DNA from: Gemmata palustris
Lineage (GTDB): Bacteria; Planctomycetota; Planctomycetia; Gemmatales; Gemmataceae
Reading direction: 5' to 3'
NCBI RefSeq assembly: GCF_017939745.1
Contig: NZ_JAGKQQ010000001.1
Location: 6,959,299 to 7,023,298 of the forward strand
DNA length: 64,000 bases
Shown here: positions 31,619 through 39,778 of the stretch, piece by piece
Position numbering within the stretch: the stretch's first letter is position 1
Layout of the letters: every line of letters begins with the position of its first letter
Translations under genes and position numbers: made by a program
The notes under the pieces: generated by a model
Databases searched by the model: none
Told to the model about the DNA's origin: nothing
What the model saw: the letters and a program-made list of their open reading frames with translations, nothing else

Positions 31619-33097
31619 CTACCGCGCCGGGAACTTCGCCGGGTCCGCAACGATCGGGTCGAGCGGTTCGCCGTTGAGCGCCCGCAGGAACAGCACGAGG
31701 TCCGCTTTTTCCTGGGTGCTGAGGTTCAGCTTGAGCGGGATGATCGGCTTCTTCGTCGGGCCGTAGGTCTTGACGGCCGGATCGACCGACTTGCCCTCCG
31801 CGCGCGCCTTGGTGTAGGCGGATTCGGCCGCGGTGTCGCGCATCTTCTCGCTCAACCAGGCGTTCACGTTCCCCCCGCGGTCGTAGAAGTCCACCACTTG
31901 CTCCAGCGTCTTCTCGTCCCCGCTGTGCATGTACGGTGCGGTCCAGAGCAGCCCGCGCGTGCCCGGCGTCTTGAACGCGCCCACGAGGGCCGTGTCCTTG
32001 TGACCGGTAGCCAGGCGCACGAACCGGCCGAACTCCTCGAGCGGCAGTTCGCCGTCCTTCGCGCCCACGCCCAGGTTGTGGAACCCGTGGTCGGTGTAGG
32101 TGTCGCCGGTGTGACAGTTCGTGCAGCGGGCCTTGTTGAAGAACAGTTCGCGGCCCGCGAGGAGGCGCTTGCCGAACTCGTCGGCCTTGCCCGCGTCGGC
32201 CGCGGCATCGAGCCCCAGGTCTTTCAGGGCCGTGCCCTTCGTGGCGAACTCGTCCTTCAGCGCGTTCGTGTAGTCCTCGGCCTTGAGCACGAACTTCCCG
32301 CTCTCCTCTTCGATGACGCGCTTCCGCATGAGTGCCTCGGCCCTGTCGTGCAGGCTGTTGCCGAGCAGCACGGTGCGCTCGTAGGTGGCGATCGCCTTCG
32401 CCGCGGCGTCGCGGGTCGGGGCGTGGCCGAACACCGCGTTGAACGCCTTCACGTAGCCGGGGTTCGCGCGGAGCCGGGCCACCGCTTCTTCCCACGGGTC
32501 GGTCTTCCCGCCGAACATTTCCTTGTTGTTGCCGACCGGCCCCTGCGCCTGGTCCTCGAGCGACGACCCGCGCCCGTCCCAGAACTGGAACCGGTTGTAC
32601 GCGGAGTTGAACACGGTGGGCGAGTTGATCGGCCCGAGCGCGTCGTTGATCCCGCTCGAGGTCCGCTTGCCGTCCGCGAAGCCCTTGCTCGGCGCGTGGC
32701 AACTCGCGCACGCCACGCTCCCGTTGGTGGACATGATCTTGTCGTAGTACAGCTCCTTGCCGAGCGCCCACTTCTCGACGGTCATCGGGTTCTCGGCCGG
32801 GACCACGGGCGCCTGCGTGAGCCCGAGCGGGACCTTCAGTTTGACGACCTTGCGCGTCACCTTCAGGCCGGTCGCGGGGTCCGCGTCCTCCTGCGTGCCC
32901 TCGGTCCAGAACCCCTTCAGCGCCTTCCACTCGGGCTGGTTACTGGTGAGGAACACCACCGGCACGCGGTCCTTGAACGGAGTCATTTTTGACTCGTTCG
33001 GCAGCAAGAAGTCGGCCGGCTCGATGGGCGGCTGGGCGCCGGCGGGCGCTGCGAACGTGAACAGTGCGAGTACAAACAGAACCCAGCGAACTGTCAT
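31619..33097 (-). CDS. Dihaem cytochrome c peroxidase-type protein (492 aa)
   Basis: The ATG at 33097 has AAAGGA about 8 bp upstream and gives a signal peptide (MTVRWVLFVLALFTFAAPAGA). Two haem motifs are present: CASCH with the SKGFADGK stretch near residue 140, and CTNCH near 330, followed by DHGFHNLGVG, TPGTRGLLWTAPYMHSGDEK and the C-terminal helix. This is the CcpA/MauG superfamily layout; classical members reduce hydrogen peroxide with electrons from a small cytochrome c or modify protein side chains. At about 490 residues it is longer than typical CcpA (about 330), with an extra insert between the haems. The upstream selenoprotein-like redoxin suggests a shared redox role, as inference. 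Confidence 0.9.
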   Translation of the reverse strand: MTVRWVLFVLALFTFAAPAGAQPPIEPADFLLPNESKMTPFKDRVPVVFLTSNQPEWKALKGFWTEGTQEDADPATGLKVTRKVVKLKVPLGLTQAPVVPAENPMTVEKWALGKELYYDKIMSTNGSVACASCHAPSKGFADGKRTSSGINDALGPINSPTVFNSAYNRFQFWDGRGSSLEDQAQGPVGNNKEMFGGKTDPWEEAVARLRANPGYVKAFNAVFGHAPTRDAAAKAIATYERTVLLGNSLHDRAEALMRKRVIEEESGKFVLKAEDYTNALKDEFATKGTALKDLGLDAAADAGKADEFGKRLLAGRELFFNKARCTNCHTGDTYTDHGFHNLGVGAKDGELPLEEFGRFVRLATGHKDTALVGAFKTPGTRGLLWTAPYMHSGDEKTLEQVVDFYDRGGNVNAWLSEKMRDTAAESAYTKARAEGKSVDPAVKTYGPTKKPIIPLKLNLSTQEKADLVLFLRALNGEPLDPIVADPAKFPAR

Positions 33098-33179: not shown

Positions 33180-33782
33180 TTAGGTGCCGGCGGCGGGTGC
33201 GTCAACGTTTGGGCCATCGGGCTCGCGTTCGTGCGGAATCGGCGGTGCCGATGGGAGGGCGGCGAGTAGATCGGGAACCCCGGGCCGATCGGTCGGGTCC
33301 GCGGACGGGTGCGCGAAGACCACGTTGCGGTCGCGTGAAAGAATGAAGTCGCCGCCGAGCTGGAGCACGTCCTCGCCCGCGTAGGGCTTCTTCACGCGGT
33401 AGCCCTTGAACATCCCGCGGAAGTAGCCCCACAACACGCGCGGTTTGAAGAACGTGAGCCACCCCGTGCGCTCCAGACCGAAGGCGGAGTACGCGGCCCG
33501 CTCCGGGTCGCACACGACGGCCACGGCCCATTTGTGGCGCGCAACATACAGAGCGAGCACTTCGGGGCGCGCTTGCGAAATAACGAGAACGGAGCACCCC
33601 CGCGCCGCGAACCGGGCGCGGGCCGCGTCCACCTCGCCGAGGTGGGCGTTACAGGGGATTCACGCCAGGTGCCGTAAGAAAACGACGAGCAGAAAATCGG
33701 ATACGAGGAGCGACGACAGCCGGACCGGGGTGCCGTCCGGCTGAAAGAGCGTCAGATCGGGAGCCGTGCCGCCGGGAATCAT
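33180..33782 (-). CDS. Candidate selenocysteine redoxin, AhpC/TSA-like, Sec at codon 41 (in-frame TGA 33660-33662)
   Basis: Reading from the ATG at 33782 (whose ATGA overlaps the preceding glycosyltransferase stop) gives TAPDLTLFQPDGTPVRLSSL, a beta strand FLLVVFLRHLA, then an in-frame TGA, then IPCNAHLGEVDAARARFAA and the rest of the fold through to 33180. In the AhpC/TSA peroxiredoxin-like family the expected motif is RHxxCxxC; the TGA sits exactly where the first, catalytic Cys belongs, making UxxC (Sec41, Cys44). The other family blocks are intact on both sides (VLVISQARPEV, VVCDPERAAYSAFGL, LGGDFILSRDRNVVFAH). An ORF finder therefore splits it. A 9-bp hairpin with a G-rich loop lies 25 nt after the TGA, as bacterial SECIS elements do. 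A nonsense mutation is the alternative. Confidence 0.75.
33626..33648 (-). promoter_or_regulatory. SECIS-like hairpin just downstream of the in-frame TGA
   Basis: In the transcript of the redoxin gene, 18-24 nt after the TGA, CCACCUC pairs with GAGGUGG around the loop GGC (nucleotides 25-27); beyond a C-A mismatch two more pairs extend the stem. The apical loop starts with two guanines and lies inside the 16-37 nt window known for bacterial SECIS elements. The hairpin is coding, as in formate dehydrogenase selenoproteins. Confidence 0.6.
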
Positions 33783-34843
33783 TTCTTCACGCGCTCCAGA
33801 ACAAACGCGCTGGCGGGTTGAGCCGGGCGCATCGAACTCAAGCGGCATTTTACCCACCAACGTGCCTGTTTCGCCACTTCCTTCCCGAAGCCCCACGCGA
33901 AGCCGAAATGGATCGCGACGAACACCATCGGGATGCGCGCGCCCGCGGCGAGGGGCAGGCCGCGGCCCAGCACCGCGCCCGCGCCGAGCAAAACTGCGGC
34001 GTAAAGTCCGATGCTCGCGAGCCACAGCCAGCCGAGGTACGGCACCACCGCGCTCAGCGGCCCCGCGGTGACGGCCCACACCGCCCACAGCGGCGGCACG
34101 AGTGCGGGAACCGACAGCGACTTCGGGTGCTTGCAGGCGAGCTTCGCCCGGCCCTTGCCGTAGCGCCCGAGCTGGTAAAACAGTGCCCCGAAGGTGCCCC
34201 GCGGTTCGTACACGATCTTCACTTCGGGGGTGAAGTAGCACGTCAGCCCGGCCGCGTGGACGCGCTCGTTGAACTCCACGTCCTCGCACGCATCGAACTC
34301 TTGGTCGAACAGCCCGATGGTGTGGAACACCTTGCGCGAGTACGCGACCGCGGTGCTCTGCGGGGGGACGAACTTCGCCTCGTTGGAATAAATGTCGGAA
34401 TCGGGATTGTGCCCGAGCCGGCTGCTCCGCGCCGCGCTCACGGCCTGCTGGAACCGCGTCGGGGACTCGACGTCCAGCGGTTGGGGGCGCCCGAGGCAAT
34501 CCGCCCGGCTCGTGGCGAACGCCTCGGAGAGCTTCTTCAGGTAGTCGCGGTCGGGGACGTGGCAGTGCCCGTCCACGATCACCACGACGTCCTTCGTCGC
34601 GTGCCGGATGCCGGTGTTCCGCCCGGACGACGCGAGCATCTCGCTGTTGAACACGAGCTTCAAGTTGGAGAACTCGGACTGGAGCCGGCGCACGATGAGC
34701 ACGGTGTCATCGGTGGACACGCCGTCCGCGACGATCACCTCGAACGCGCTCCGCGGGAAGTCTTGCGTGAGCAGCAGGCGCAGCGTGTGCTCGATCGAGC
34801 GCGACTCGTTCCGCACGGGAACGATTACGCTAACGGATGGCAT
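33779..34843 (-). CDS. Family 2 glycosyltransferase with C-terminal membrane segments (354 aa)
   Basis: The GT-A domain opens with VSVIVPVRNESRSIEHTL, followed by the VIVADGVSTDDTV, VFNSEMLASSGRNTGI and VVIVDGHCHVPD (DxD-like metal site) blocks and an EDVEFNERVHAAG acceptor-side motif. Two to three hydrophobic segments at the C-terminus (WAVWAVTAGPLSAVVPYLGW, IPMVFVAIHFGFAWGFG) anchor it to the inner face of the membrane. The usual role is addition of a sugar to a lipid-linked intermediate of exopolysaccharide. It is the fifth gene of the exosortase-linked operon; its stop overlaps the start of the selenoprotein candidate (ATGA), so translation is coupled. Confidence 0.9.
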   Translation of the reverse strand: MPSVSVIVPVRNESRSIEHTLRLLLTQDFPRSAFEVIVADGVSTDDTVLIVRRLQSEFSNLKLVFNSEMLASSGRNTGIRHATKDVVVIVDGHCHVPDRDYLKKLSEAFATSRADCLGRPQPLDVESPTRFQQAVSAARSSRLGHNPDSDIYSNEAKFVPPQSTAVAYSRKVFHTIGLFDQEFDACEDVEFNERVHAAGLTCYFTPEVKIVYEPRGTFGALFYQLGRYGKGRAKLACKHPKSLSVPALVPPLWAVWAVTAGPLSAVVPYLGWLWLASIGLYAAVLLGAGAVLGRGLPLAAGARIPMVFVAIHFGFAWGFGKEVAKQARWWVKCRLSSMRPAQPASAFVLERVKK

Positions 34844-34922: not shown

Positions 34923-35657
34923 TCATTCCGTTGGGACGCGCGGGGCGCGGTAGTACACGTGCTTGAGGCCGATCACCTTCAGCGCGGTGGCGCAGAGGAT
35001 GAGCAGTTCCATGCGCGCGGAGCGAAAGCGGATGTAAAAGAGGTCGTAGGCGACCTTGTTTCGCACGCTCCGGGTACACGTATCCGGCGGCAGGTGGATC
35101 TGCGCGAACCCGGTGATTCCCGGCTTCACCGCGTGCCGGCGGTCGTACCCCACGACCACCTCGCGCAGCTTCTTCACGATCTCCGGGCGCTCCGGGCGCG
35201 GGCCGACCAAACTCATTTCGCCCCTCAGCACGTTGAACAGTTGGGGCAGTTCGTCCAGGTGCAGTTCGCGCATCACGCGCCCCACCGGGGTGGCGCGCGC
35301 GTCGCCCGGCGTGCTCCACTGCGGTCCCGTGAGCTTCTCGCAATCGTGGTACATCGTGCGAATCTTGTACAGCGTGAACACGCGCCCGCCGCGGCCGACG
35401 CGCGATTGCGTGTAGAGCGCCGGTCCGAGCGACGTGAGCCGCACCAGAACCGCGCACGCGGCGATCACGGGCAGCGCGGGTACGAGCACGAGTGCCGCGA
35501 GCACGAAGTCGGCCGCCGCTTTCACCCGCTCACGGGCCGAGGGCGGGGGCACGATCGGCGGGGCACTCGCGCGCCGCAACCGGGGGACGTGGGGGGCAGG
35601 TGTTCGCAACGCCGACCTCTGGCTGACCCGTGCGGGCGACATCCGGTTCCCGTTCAT
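34923..35657 (-). CDS. Undecaprenyl-phosphate sugar phosphotransferase-type initiating enzyme (244 aa)
   Basis: I start at the ATG at 35657 (MNGNRMSPARVS). After a short tail one hydrophobic hairpin (FVLAALVLVPALPVIAACAV) anchors the protein, and the rest is the PF02397 bacterial sugar transferase domain: LTSLGPALYTQSRVGRGGRV, FTLYKIRTMY, LHLDELPQLFNVLRGEMSLV, GPRPERP, VKPGITGFAQ and YDLFYI. Such enzymes move a sugar-1-phosphate from a nucleotide sugar to undecaprenyl phosphate and start an exopolysaccharide repeat unit. The N-terminal membrane portion is shorter than in WbaP. It is part of the exosortase locus and precedes the GT2 gene by about 80 bp, with a repeat in the gap. Confidence 0.9.
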   Translation of the reverse strand: MNGNRMSPARVSQRSALRTPAPHVPRLRRASAPPIVPPPSARERVKAAADFVLAALVLVPALPVIAACAVLVRLTSLGPALYTQSRVGRGGRVFTLYKIRTMYHDCEKLTGPQWSTPGDARATPVGRVMRELHLDELPQLFNVLRGEMSLVGPRPERPEIVKKLREVVVGYDRRHAVKPGITGFAQIHLPPDTCTRSVRNKVAYDLFYIRFRSARMELLILCATALKVIGLKHVYYRAPRVPTE

Positions 35658-35812
35658 ACAGATGCGATCCTCGCTTCGCTCGGGCGACCAACAAGTGGCG
35701 GGCGTGACGATGGGTAGGGGTGAGCGATGAATAATGCGCCGCGGCGAGCCGAACGTCCGCGCGGCACCGGGGGCCGCGTTGTTTCGCTCGTCCCCGGTGC
35801 GGTTCGTCACTT

Positions 35813-36457
35813 CTAGCGGCCGAACGCCGCGGAATACTGTGCCCACGTCGAGAGCACGAACGCCTTCGTCGTCGCGTCGTCTTCGGGGGTCTTGTCGCCG
35901 TCGGAGTCCCCGAGCGGGGTGGCGATGTAGACCTTGTAGATCGTGGGCGCGCGCAACTGGCTGGCGAACTGCCAGCGCGGGTTGTCCGGGGCGACCCACT
36001 CGCCCCCGGTGGTCCACGCCCAGCGCACCCGCACGCGGTCGCGCTTGGTCTTCGTTTCCTTCTCGAAGTCCGCCACGTACACGGTCGCCGGTCCGCCGGG
36101 CAGGTCGATCGTTTCCTTGTGGGCCGCGCGGAGCGTCTTGTACCCGCTGCCCGGGTAGCACACGTCGGGCGTGTGCGTCGCGACCGAGCCCGGGATGCCG
36201 CTGATGAAGCTGACGACCGCGGTGTGGTTGTCCGGCGAGGTGTAGCGCCGGCTGGTGGCGGTGCTCCGCTCGTTCAGCGGCATCTCGGTGTCCACGTTCT
36301 CCGACTGCCAGCCCTCGGACCGGACCTCCAGCGCGTGGAGCCGGTCCGTGCGGCCCCCGTCGGACGCGAGCAGGTCCCACCGCTGCGTGACCGAGCCGTT
36401 GACCAGTGCGCCGCACACGACCAGCGCGAGAACCGAACAGAACGTAAGTGGCTTCAT
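35813..36457 (-). CDS. EpsI-family exosortase-associated protein (214 aa)
   Basis: A signal-anchor (MKPLTFCSVLALVVCGALVNG) is followed by the EpsI/DUF3485 fold: SRRYTSPDNHTAVVSFISGI, HTPDVCYPGSGYKTL, TVYVADFEKE and a C-terminal helix SAAFGR. The CYPGSG motif with conserved Cys is the hallmark. EpsI proteins occur with or fused to exosortases in exopolysaccharide loci. The start is the second of two adjacent methionines (36457), though 36460 is equivalent. It is about 60 bp downstream of the tyrosine-kinase-like gene on the same strand. Confidence 0.85.
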   Translation of the reverse strand: MKPLTFCSVLALVVCGALVNGSVTQRWDLLASDGGRTDRLHALEVRSEGWQSENVDTEMPLNERSTATSRRYTSPDNHTAVVSFISGIPGSVATHTPDVCYPGSGYKTLRAAHKETIDLPGGPATVYVADFEKETKTKRDRVRVRWAWTTGGEWVAPDNPRWQFASQLRAPTIYKVYIATPLGDSDGDKTPEDDATTKAFVLSTWAQYSAAFGR

Positions 36458-36518
36458 CATGGGTGCTCCTCGGAAACGTCCCCGCGCCCGATGGGGCGCG
36501 GGGGAGAGGGACTTTTAC

Positions 36519-38801
36519 TCAGCAGAGCGATTCCTGGTCGGTCGCGCCGATGTACACGATGCCGGAGTACGGGATCTCCATCATCGCGACGCGGTCCGCG
36601 GCGCGCTTCAGGAGCGGGGTGACGGTCTCGCGGTACTTGGCGCACATCAGCACCACCTCGCACCGCCGGGCGACCTCGACCGATTCCGCCACGGTCAGCA
36701 GCGCGTGCCCGTGGATCACGACGCAGTCGTAGGGCTCCTTCAGTTTCGCGAGCAGCGTTTCGAGCTTCTCGCCGGTCGCGGCCTTGCGGGCCTCGTCGGA
36801 CCACTTCCCGGCCGGGAGCATGTGCAACCCGCTCGGCAGGAACTGTACCGCGGCCCGCATGTCGGTTTCCGCGCGGAGCAGCTCGCACACGCCGGCCGCG
36901 TTCTGCACGCCCGCGTAGGCGTGCAGCGCGGGCTCCCGGAGGTCGAAATCTACGAGCAGGGTCTTGTAGCCCGCCTGGGCCAAGCTGCTCGCGAGCCCGA
37001 ACGCCGTGAACGCCTTGCCCTCGTCGCCGATCGGACTGGTGACGGCGATGGTCGTCGCCCCGCGGCTCAGCCACGTTTGCGAAACGTAAGCGCGGAGCTT
37101 GTCGATGGACTCGTTCGTGGCCGCGCGCTTGACCGGGTCGCGCCCGCCGCCCTGGGACGCGGTCGCGTCGCCGGGGGCACACGGGATCACGCCCACCACC
37201 GGCGCGGGCGACGACGTCTTCACGTCGGCGAGCGAGCTCACGCGCTTCGACATCATCTCGAACCCGAGCACGCCCAGGGCCATCAGCACGAACCCCATGA
37301 TGCTGGCGAACGCGGTGCCGAGAACCTGCTTCTTCGTGTCCTTCTGCGTCGGGGCGGACGCGGCTTGGAGGATCTCGACGCGGGGCGGGGATTCCACCGC
37401 CAGTTTGAGCAGTTCCTTTTGAAGAATCAGCCGGCGGAAGACGCTGTCCACGGTTTCGAGGTCGCTGTTTTCGGGGAGGTACGGCTCCCGCTCGAACCGC
37501 GACGCGAACGCCCCCCCGCTCTTTTCGGTCGGGGCCGGCAACTCCATCAGTTGTTTCACCACCCTCGGGAGGGCTTCCTTTGCGTGATCGAGCTGTTCTT
37601 GCAACTGCTGGATTCTTTGGATGACTTTTTCCAGTTCCTTTGCGGTCGGCTGTGCTTCCCTCACCCGCCGATCGGCCTCGAACGTTTTGAGCTTCTCGTC
37701 CCGCACTTCCTTGTGCCGCGCCTCGTCCGCCTCGTATGCGTGTTTGAGTTCGAGGATCGCGGGGGCTTTTGGGTTGGCGCTAGTGTTCTCGCGCTCCTTC
37801 CAGAGCCGGTACGATTGAACCATTCGGACTTTGGTGACGGCCACGTCTTGCATGGCGTCGATCGCGTCCTCGATCGTCTTCGGCACGGGCGCTTTCTTGA
37901 TGAACTCCAGGCGCTCGCGCAGAACCTCGCGCTCGCGCTCGGCGGCGTGAATGGCGAGGGGCAGTTGGTCGATTTTCTCCCGGATCTTTACGTACTCGCC
38001 GGTGAAGAACGTGGAGCCGAGGCGGTCGAGCACGAAGGGGGGAATCGCGCCAGGTACGGGCGCCGGGACCGCCCCCGGTGGGGGCGGGGCCACGGGGGTA
38101 GCCGGGCCGCCCGCCGGGATCACGCCGTTTCCACCGTCCTTCGCGATGGTGCCGGGCTTCGTGGTGAGGCGGAGTTTTTCCTTGATCCTGGTGTAAGAGT
38201 CTTCGACTTGTGCCTGGAACTTGCGCGTGTCGCGCACCTCGCGCTCGACCACCTGTTCGATGAACGCCTTTTGTACCGCGTCCACGATCTTCTTCGCGTC
38301 CTCGGGCGCGTGCCCCTTGAACACGACCCGGATCACCTCGGACCCGTCCTGCCAGGACACGATCAGTTCCTCGTCGAGGTACTTGAGGGGCTCTTTTTGG
38401 GCCTTGATCGTGGGCAGGTCCTTGATGTCGCGGAGGGCCGCGTTGAGAACGAAATCGGACTTGATGAGGGTCTTGATCGTGTTCGTGTACGTGACGAAAT
38501 CCGTCTTGGCCTGCTGCTGGTTCCCCGGACCCGCGATCGTGGACTGCACCGACGACACCTTGAGCATCCCGGTGGACTCGTACTTGCTCGCGAGCAGTTC
38601 CCACGCGACGAACGCGCCCGCCCCGCCGAGCAGCGTGCCGCAGAACGCGATCATCAGCCAGTGGAGCCGCAAGTAGATGAGCACGCGCATCGCCGCGCCG
38701 TCGTCCGACTTCTCGCCGGGCCGCGTGGCCGGGCGCGGGGCGCGGGGCGGCGCGGTGGGGGCCGCGGGGGCGGGGTGCGTAGCGAACGAGGGTCCGTTCA
38801 T
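36519..38801 (-). CDS. Wzc/Wzz-type chain-length protein fused to a degenerate tyrosine-kinase domain (760 aa)
   Basis: A Pro-rich cytoplasmic leader is followed by TM1 (WLMIAFCGTLLGGAGAFVAW), a large periplasmic coiled-coil part (Wzz-like, with a Pro-rich insert) and TM2 near 500-525, then an ATPase domain of the BY-kinase family. In the ATPase the Walker A reads SPIGDEGKAFTA, with Ala where Ser/Thr should follow the Lys. The A' box is normal (LLVDFDLREPALHA), but the Walker B strand VVIHGHALLTVAES has no Asp. The C-terminal Tyr cluster typical of autokinases is also missing. The protein probably controls polymer length and export without kinase activity. It is the second gene of the operon after the exosortase. 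Confidence 0.88.
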   Translation of the reverse strand: MNGPSFATHPAPAAPTAPPRAPRPATRPGEKSDDGAAMRVLIYLRLHWLMIAFCGTLLGGAGAFVAWELLASKYESTGMLKVSSVQSTIAGPGNQQQAKTDFVTYTNTIKTLIKSDFVLNAALRDIKDLPTIKAQKEPLKYLDEELIVSWQDGSEVIRVVFKGHAPEDAKKIVDAVQKAFIEQVVEREVRDTRKFQAQVEDSYTRIKEKLRLTTKPGTIAKDGGNGVIPAGGPATPVAPPPPGAVPAPVPGAIPPFVLDRLGSTFFTGEYVKIREKIDQLPLAIHAAEREREVLRERLEFIKKAPVPKTIEDAIDAMQDVAVTKVRMVQSYRLWKERENTSANPKAPAILELKHAYEADEARHKEVRDEKLKTFEADRRVREAQPTAKELEKVIQRIQQLQEQLDHAKEALPRVVKQLMELPAPTEKSGGAFASRFEREPYLPENSDLETVDSVFRRLILQKELLKLAVESPPRVEILQAASAPTQKDTKKQVLGTAFASIMGFVLMALGVLGFEMMSKRVSSLADVKTSSPAPVVGVIPCAPGDATASQGGGRDPVKRAATNESIDKLRAYVSQTWLSRGATTIAVTSPIGDEGKAFTAFGLASSLAQAGYKTLLVDFDLREPALHAYAGVQNAAGVCELLRAETDMRAAVQFLPSGLHMLPAGKWSDEARKAATGEKLETLLAKLKEPYDCVVIHGHALLTVAESVEVARRCEVVLMCAKYRETVTPLLKRAADRVAMMEIPYSGIVYIGATDQESLC

Positions 38802-38881: not shown

Positions 38882-39778
38882 TCAGGTTTTTGAGGGCTCG
38901 TCGAGCACCAGGCGCTTGAGCACCCACAGCTCGACCGCGAGCAGCCCGAGGCCGATGAAGATCATCATGTAGCCGTAGGCGTCGTGGAGGAACTTGCGCG
39001 TCGCGTCGTCGGTGATGTTGGCGAAACTCACTCCGGTCGCGGTGATGCGCAGCACGTTCGTGAGGATCGCGATGGGGATGATGCCGAGGAGCACCATCAG
39101 CTTCTCGAACCGGCTGCGCTGGATCATGAGCACGGCCCCGACCGAGAACGCGGCGAACGTGACCATCATCTTCAGCCCGCTGCAGGCGTCCACGACCCCG
39201 AGCCGGACGTCGTCGATGAGGATCAGGTTGCCGTCGCGGATGGCCGGCAGCCCGAGCGTCTGCAGCAGGAACGTGCTGCTCACGGTCGCGGCCGTCTTGA
39301 GCGGCGAGCCGACGTTGCGCTCGAGCTCGTAGGGGAGCGGGATCATGAACGCGAGGAACGCGATCGCCGGGCCGGTGAGCTTCAGCAGCGGCACTCCGCC
39401 GACCGCGAGGCACACCCCGACGAGCGCGAGCAACAGCGAGGCCGCGTCGAGCTGGTGGAACAGCATCGCCCCGGCCACGGTGCGCAGCGCGAGGATCGCG
39501 ACCAGGAGCCCGCACCCCAGGATCGGGAGCGGTTTGAGTACGAGCGAGTCGCTTTTCCACGCGCGCCACAACAGGAACGCGGAGAAGAACGGCACGAGCG
39601 GGCCGTGTGAGTATTGGGGGTCGTTCAGCCACTTGTCAGCGAACACGCTGAGCATGGGCAGGTACGCCCAGCCGAGAACGACCGCGATGGCAGCGCCCTG
39701 CCAGACTGCGAGGCGCGACTTCACGGAAGCCGACGCGGGCGCGGGTAAGGTCCGTGATGCGAAGCTAACTGACGACAT
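38882..39778 (-). CDS. Exosortase (transpeptidase-like membrane protein, 298 aa)
   Basis: Seven or eight hydrophobic segments carry the exosortase signature: GWAYLPMLSVFADKWLNDPQ, YSHGPLVPFFSAFLLW, MIPLPYELERNV, the catalytic Cys in VVDACSGLKMM near residue 199, the Arg in LTNVLRI and the His in KFLHDAYGYMM. Exosortases cut PEP-CTERM-like tails from exported proteins and transfer them to glycans. The gene is first in the operon with the BY-kinase-like, EpsI and sugar-transferase genes, the typical context. No PEP-CTERM substrate is encoded in the window. A second, distinct exosortase is at 56334-57371. Confidence 0.93.
   Translation of the reverse strand: MSSVSFASRTLPAPASASVKSRLAVWQGAAIAVVLGWAYLPMLSVFADKWLNDPQYSHGPLVPFFSAFLLWRAWKSDSLVLKPLPILGCGLLVAILALRTVAGAMLFHQLDAASLLLALVGVCLAVGGVPLLKLTGPAIAFLAFMIPLPYELERNVGSPLKTAATVSSTFLLQTLGLPAIRDGNLILIDDVRLGVVDACSGLKMMVTFAAFSVGAVLMIQRSRFEKLMVLLGIIPIAILTNVLRITATGVSFANITDDATRKFLHDAYGYMMIFIGLGLLAVELWVLKRLVLDEPSKT

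Follow-up and report, generated by a model that had tools for sequence, protein, structure and literature searches.

A probable selenocysteine-containing SelL-related redoxin in a conserved exopolysaccharide gene neighbourhood of a planctomycete

Main finding

A redoxin gene of 200 codons, interrupted once by an in-frame TGA, lies in the window, the stretch of 64,000 nucleotides of the Gemmata palustris genome analysed here. We consider it very probable that this gene encodes a SECIS-directed selenocysteine (Sec) oxidoreductase of the peroxiredoxin-like kind, with U41 as the attacking and C44 as the resolving residue, and that it belongs to a conserved exosortase/exopolysaccharide neighbourhood. 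Sec insertion at codon 41 is what we infer from the machinery found in the genome and from comparison with relatives. Below, we describe the gene and its family, the codon used at the Sec site across related genomes, the hairpin that follows the TGA, the Sec machinery of the host and the surrounding genes, and we weigh the other ways of reading these data.

The redoxin frame and its TGA codon

The features of the gene are as follows.

33180..33782, minus strand: putative Sec-containing, SelL-related redoxin coding sequence, 200 aa with U41, stop TAA at 33182-33180
33782-33780, minus strand: redoxin start ATG
33660..33662, minus strand: in-frame TGA, the putative Sec codon 41 (TGA in 59 of 63 family loci)
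33651..33653, minus strand: TGT, Cys44, second residue of UxxC and probable resolving Cys (Cys codon in 63 of 63 family loci)

The original prediction described a frame running from 33782 to 33180 with a single interruption at 33660-33662, and a re-reading of the sequence reproduces these coordinates exactly, with no second in-frame stop among the 200 codons. The protein around the TGA reads VVFLRHLA-U-IPCNAHLGEVD, i.e. RHxxUxxC. This agrees with the placement of the TGA at the first Cys of an RHxxCxxC motif, where it would give UxxC, and four of the 63 family homologues carry Cys at this very position. Automatic annotation was also correctly expected to split the gene: under translation table 11, the redoxin frame yields one open reading frame (ORF) of 279 aa (33660-34499), ending at the TGA, and another of 150 aa beyond it. 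Gene calling with table 11 breaks up genes of this TGA-containing kind.

Family and fold

When Cys is put in for the TGA, the translation matches the Pfam entries AhpC-TSA_2 (60.6 bits) and AhpC-TSA (51 bits), both above cut-off, and the label ‘AhpC/TSA-like’ is therefore correct at the Pfam level. Its precise family is NCBIfam NF040769 (SelL-related redox protein), which it matches at 201.9 bits (cut-off 120), covering positions 2-172 of the 173-position profile; it is the sole match above cut-off in its own genome. The Pfam and NCBIfam libraries searched gave no extra domain. Among named relatives, Gemmata sp. IIL30 comes closest, at 84% identity, in keeping with the planctomycete origin that had been proposed.

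The AlphaFold model of the redoxin is weak, with a mean pLDDT of 69.8 (33-51 for the other four models) and values below 50 for residues 41-43. It places the redox motif between the strand at 30-36 and the helix at 44-59, with low confidence at 41-43. Comparison of the model with the PDB by Foldseek and VIA-align 2 ranks peroxiredoxins first, with Bcp4 (Z 18.0, 2.9 A over 151 residues) followed by BcpB and AhpE; a sequence search of solved structures returned two weak matches (E 0.87 and 1.2). The protein is thus predicted to have a peroxiredoxin/thioredoxin-type fold, in which the redox motif would sit between a core strand and the next helix.

Since some homologue rows showed two TGA codons, we also considered a UxxU motif like that of SelL. 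This is ruled out: codon 44 is TGT here, and TGA occurs at +3 in none of the 90 placed loci, a set from which some phylum rows with two TGAs are missing as they were not retrieved. In the placed rows with two TGAs (e.g. L024, L025, L029, L039, L056 and L065), the stop that follows the Sec codon is itself TGA.

Selenocysteine and cysteine forms among relatives

Within the same taxonomic family, 66 of 95 genomes contain a match to the redoxin. Leaving aside the 14 with E 2.0e-6 or worse, the weakest of the 77 matches, gave 63 retrieved loci; L086-L089, from named relatives, probably duplicate genomes already counted and were kept out of all tallies. The comparison of codon 41 among relatives, suggested together with the prediction, came out as for a Sec site: TGA in 59 loci and TGT or TGC in four (L063, L075, L100 and L121), with Cys at codon 44 in 63 of 63. 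The motif rule used to place the loci requires U or C at the site and is hence possibly biased toward this result. Plain tblastn placement, used as a check, disagreed for L065 alone and left the tally at 59 + 4. For the 57 loci whose placement came from tblastn alone, the site codon is TGA or Cys, and Trp in none.

In the wider phylum, a match is present in 133 of 392 genomes. The 29 loci taken from this set (L024-L052) are the best-scoring ones rather than a random sample, and L042 and L049 could not be placed; the remaining 27 have TGA (14) or Cys (13) at the Sec codon. One of the 14 with TGA, the divergent phylum homologue L034, has Phe in place of Cys at +3.

The distribution of selA follows the Sec form. 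It is found above cut-off in 85 of the 95 family genomes and in 53 of the 58 with a Sec form, the remaining five being drafts that are 65-88% complete. Across the phylum, all 14 Sec-form genomes have a strong selA match compared with two of the 13 Cys-form genomes, G025 and G289 (Fisher p 6e-6); this scores two Cys-form genomes with intermediate matches, G121 (4.5e-81) and G339 (8.7e-83), as without selA, and counting them would give 4/13. Matches in the other nine Cys-form genomes are weak or absent.

A quick, midpoint-rooted tree (90 rows; support 94; many forks open) contains one group of 62, made up of the 59 Sec rows and three Cys rows, L063, L075 and L100. As these three are nested within the Sec group and apart from each other, they are best read as Sec-to-Cys changes. 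L075, a Cys form that keeps the hairpin (6 of 7 pairs), and L077, a Sec form, are sister sequences, and their split is probably a recent change of this kind. In genome G417, the Cys form L063 occupies the syntenic place with its hairpin kept, a separate Sec copy (L096) is found elsewhere, and a C-terminal fragment, 62% identical, lies just beyond the Cys copy. Among the other genomes of the genus, 10 of 18 have a strong redoxin match; the match is weak or absent in the other eight, all of which have selA.

The part of the gene after the TGA is under purifying selection, with dN/dS values of 0.235, 0.305 and 0.414 for three pairs within the genus, the first two being comparisons of the redoxin with two relatives from the genus.

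The hairpin behind the TGA

A hairpin with SECIS-like distance, stem and loop had been predicted behind the TGA, and it is present:

33629..33645, minus strand: SECIS-like hairpin, 7-bp stem of 33645-33639 with 33635-33629, loop GGC at 33638-33636

Counted from the TGA, positions 15-21 pair with 25-31, and the loop starts 22 nt past it. In bacterial SECIS elements, the loop typically opens with a G some 16-37 nt downstream of the UGA; of the 59 Sec loci, 58 have G as first loop base. The window contains the combination of TGA and hairpin once (expected 0.00), for a pattern that was itself derived from this site and its relatives, and an Rfam scan of the window at the gathering score gave no matches. 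Against dinucleotide shuffles, the energy of the hairpin alone is ordinary for a GC-rich composition (z -0.27 and -0.29). Energy alone is therefore uninformative, and the support for the hairpin is comparative.

For the comparative tests, codons in the 57 distinct Sec rows were redrawn synonymously from the genes' own usage. The six inner pairs give a mean of 5.30 observed versus 4.16 in the redraws (sd 0.096, maximum 4.51, reached in 0 of 1000), and the mean hairpin energy is -10.67 versus -5.92 (sd 0.33, 200 draws). Codon choice is strongly skewed at single positions: the Val codon at +10 is GTG in 47 of 48 cases (background 37%), and of 40 Glu codons at +9, 39 are GAG (background 49%). Leu/Glu codons form the closing pair next to the loop as CTC/GAG in 32 rows and, with the pair turned round, as CTG/CAG in five; this pair is broken by CTG/GAG in seven rows and by CTC/CAG in three, and is unpaired in 18 of the 57 rows overall.

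Pairing is found in 87.5% of the cells of the hairpin alignment. Double changes, on both sides of the stem, affect 34 cells versus 12.0 in shuffles, and the covariation score is 0.243 versus 0.094 when shuffled and 0.016-0.107 for slid versions, with the caveat that the rows are related and the null spreads of both the synonymous and the covariation tests are consequently too narrow. Two of the five covariation measures are unremarkable, namely pairs changed on both sides (385/500 shuffles) and further pair types (120/500). By these comparisons, selection at synonymous sites holds the hairpin in place, with compensatory changes.

This hairpin is not shared by every Sec form. Four or fewer of the seven pairs form in 11 of the 59 Sec loci, or nine of the 57 distinct rows (L103, L107-L113, L119, L120 and L122), and a different SECIS would thus be needed there. 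L107-L113 are seven Sec-form loci of a single genus that lack the conserved hairpin. Among the Cys forms, the stem is kept in L063 and L075 and not in L100 and L121; because two loci keep it in spite of having Cys, part of its conservation reflects inheritance.

Selenocysteine machinery of the host

The prediction called for a search of the genome for selA, selB, selC and selD. All four are present in the 9.2 Mb assembly (three contigs), above curated cut-offs and far apart on the chromosome: tRNA-Sec (selC; 67.6 bits, also reported by ARAGORN as tRNA-SeC with anticodon tca), selA (546.6 bits), selB (365.4 bits, with its neighbours in frame) and selD (390.1 bits). By our reading, selD appears to be a Cys form. 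A further, weaker match to the selB model, L013 (C1:2594113-2595273), scores 156.8 bits, below cut-off, and contains an in-frame TAA.

Elsewhere in the genome, a formate-dehydrogenase-like gene, L132 (C1:1743229-1743969, minus strand), has one in-frame TGA in the context IENQARI-U-HSASVPG, which we take to be the usual FdhA Sec site. The match in this piece is 169.5 bits, below the family cut-off, and the TGA is followed by a hairpin with a raw folding energy of -26.9 kcal/mol. L132 is a probable second selenoprotein of the genome. Taken together, the sel genes and this TGA-bearing gene indicate a Sec machinery that probably has at least one other gene to serve.

Polysaccharide genes around the redoxin

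The redoxin closes a cluster of surface polysaccharide genes, an unusual position for such an enzyme; the neighbourhood is listed here in the direction of transcription.

38882..39778, minus strand: exosortase
36519..38801, minus strand: Wzz/tyrosine-autokinase-like chain-length protein (AAA domain above cut-off, Wzz below)
35813..36460, minus strand: conserved 215-aa protein, weakly EpsI-like (below cut-off)
34923..35657, start approximate, minus strand: exopolysaccharide polyprenyl glycosylphosphotransferase (Pfam Bac_transf above cut-off, NCBIfam below cut-offs)
33779..34843, minus strand: family 2 glycosyltransferase (GT2), 5' of the redoxin in 15 of 30 family loci
33779..33782, minus strand: ATGA overlap of the GT2 stop TGA with the redoxin start ATG
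31619..33097, minus strand: MauG-like di-haem cytochrome c peroxidase family protein, 3' neighbour of the redoxin (17 of 30 family loci)

The gene at 35813-36460 is hidden under a 497-aa ORF (34923-36416) in another frame.

The proposed link to a surface-glycan locus is upheld by gene order. In seven larger loci (L123-L129), which were hand-picked rather than drawn, six from the genus and one from another genus, exosortase, Wzz, Bac_transf and GT2 genes lie upstream of the redoxin and the MauG-like gene downstream in 7/7. The redoxins of these loci have identities of 62-84%, and that of L129 is a Cys form. The 30 family loci behind the counts in the list were examined with up to about 1.6 kb of upstream sequence, and two of those counted as GT2-less have less than 180 bp upstream. 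We regard a conserved link of the redoxin to the polysaccharide locus as supported by this synteny.

The ATGA overlap suggests translational coupling of GT2 and redoxin. An ATGA or GTGA junction is also found in L053, L054, L057 and L058, where the place of GT2 is taken by an apparent small gene between GT2 and the redoxin, ending in LERVKK or a close variant. In the window, the C-terminal tail of GT2 (33779-33830) likewise ends in LERVKK. Since the GT2 tail and the small genes end in the same letters, the small gene seems to have been lost here, with its end fused to GT2. Given the conserved exosortase/exopolysaccharide neighbourhood and the overlap of start and stop, the redoxin is probably co-expressed with polysaccharide synthesis.

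Proposed mechanism

In the mechanism that we propose, SelA would make Sec-tRNA-Sec using selenophosphate from SelD, and SelB, carrying the charged tRNA, would insert selenocysteine at the UGA of codon 41 under the direction of the hairpin that lies 15-31 nt further on. The ribosome would then continue to the TAA and produce a 200-aa protein of thioredoxin/peroxiredoxin fold. The catalytic cycle is suggested by fold and motif: U41 would act as the attacking selenolate and reduce a hydroperoxide or disulfide, Cys44 would resolve it by forming a selenenylsulfide (U41-C44), and U41 would be regenerated by a thioredoxin-type system.

Alternative explanations

A lone in-frame TGA in one genome would look the same if it were a real stop in a decayed gene or a sequencing error, and table 11 does yield two separate ORFs. 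This account is extremely improbable, as the TGA recurs at codon 41 across many separate assemblies (59 of the 63 family loci, 14 of the 27 placed loci of the phylum), the sequence past it is under purifying selection (dN/dS 0.235, 0.305 and 0.414), and the genome has a complete set of sel genes; we therefore dismiss a pseudogene or sequencing error. If the codon is translated, the UGA might still be decoded by a near-cognate Trp or Cys tRNA or recoded in some other way that needs no selenium. The 11 of 59 Sec loci in which the hairpin is missing at this position would be in line with such a process, and Sec insertion is itself deduced. The 57 tblastn-placed loci, however, have TGA or Cys and never Trp, Sec-form genomes carry selA, the hairpin close behind the UGA shows the marks of synonymous-site selection, and a second gene in the genome has a TGA at a probable Sec site. 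We judge selenium-free recoding very unlikely, and a selenoprotein remains by far our preferred reading.

What the selenoprotein does in this locus is a separate matter. It may be a general peroxide or disulfide reductase, its tie to the polysaccharide genes being inherited gene order, and we lean slightly toward this view. Fifteen of the 30 family loci, including the two with less than 180 bp upstream, have no GT2 in their flanks, Sec forms occur in other genera without GT2, and the libraries searched gave no additional domain. Against this, all seven larger loci, including the one from another genus, have exosortase, Wzz-like, Bac_transf and GT2 genes ahead of the redoxin, and in the window the redoxin start overlaps the end of the upstream gene. 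A selenoenzyme dedicated to the exosortase/exopolysaccharide system, perhaps together with the MauG-like di-haem protein, is a tentative and rather doubtful suggestion; in that role, it might keep an enzyme, a carrier or a sorted surface protein in the right redox state. Should this be true, it would be, to our knowledge, the first selenium dependence of a surface-polysaccharide pathway.

Significance and relation to known systems

The redoxin adds a comparatively well-tested candidate selenoprotein in a phylum that is unnamed in the portions of the prokaryotic selenoproteome texts searched: the string ‘planctomyc’ was not found in the available main text of PMC9312934 or PMC13188914. It also offers a case of a hairpin under synonymous-site selection inside a conserved protein motif. 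The natural Sec-to-Cys changes, two of them with the hairpin intact, provide material for asking why Sec is kept, and the surface-polysaccharide locus is a place where selenium may be used. In the open-access literature, as far as its texts were available, our searches turned up no account of this Sec redoxin, nor of an exosortase-linked selenoprotein.

Full sets of Sec-insertion genes are described in G. obscuriglobus and I. pallida (PMC4807772), in a paper on selenoprotein use in Planctomycetes whose main text, in the part available, does not name the redoxin studied here. Related selenoproteins already published include Prx-like UxxC/UxxU proteins, an AhpC-TSA_2 UxxS form and, from both prokaryotes and eukaryotes, SelL (PMC2398784, PMC9312934, PMC13188914 and PMC3316567, each available in part). 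As far as the available tables of PMC9312934 and PMC13188914 show, the bacterial Prx-like UxxC/UxxU selenoproteins (PF00578) and the AhpC-TSA_2/cd02970 form have a Sec in the redox motif of an AhpC/TSA-type domain, as predicted for our protein. The AhpC-TSA_2/cd02970 form listed there is UxxS, whereas the redoxin here would have UxxC in a motif of the RHLAUIPCNAHLGEV type. Compared with the SelL-related redox proteins of NF040769, the match is full-length and we found no difference. Eukaryotic SelL, as described in the part of PMC3316567 available, has two Sec residues two residues apart and one SECIS element; the redoxin here would have a single Sec, Cys is encoded at +3, and the SECIS-like hairpin lies within the coding sequence, directly behind the UGA.
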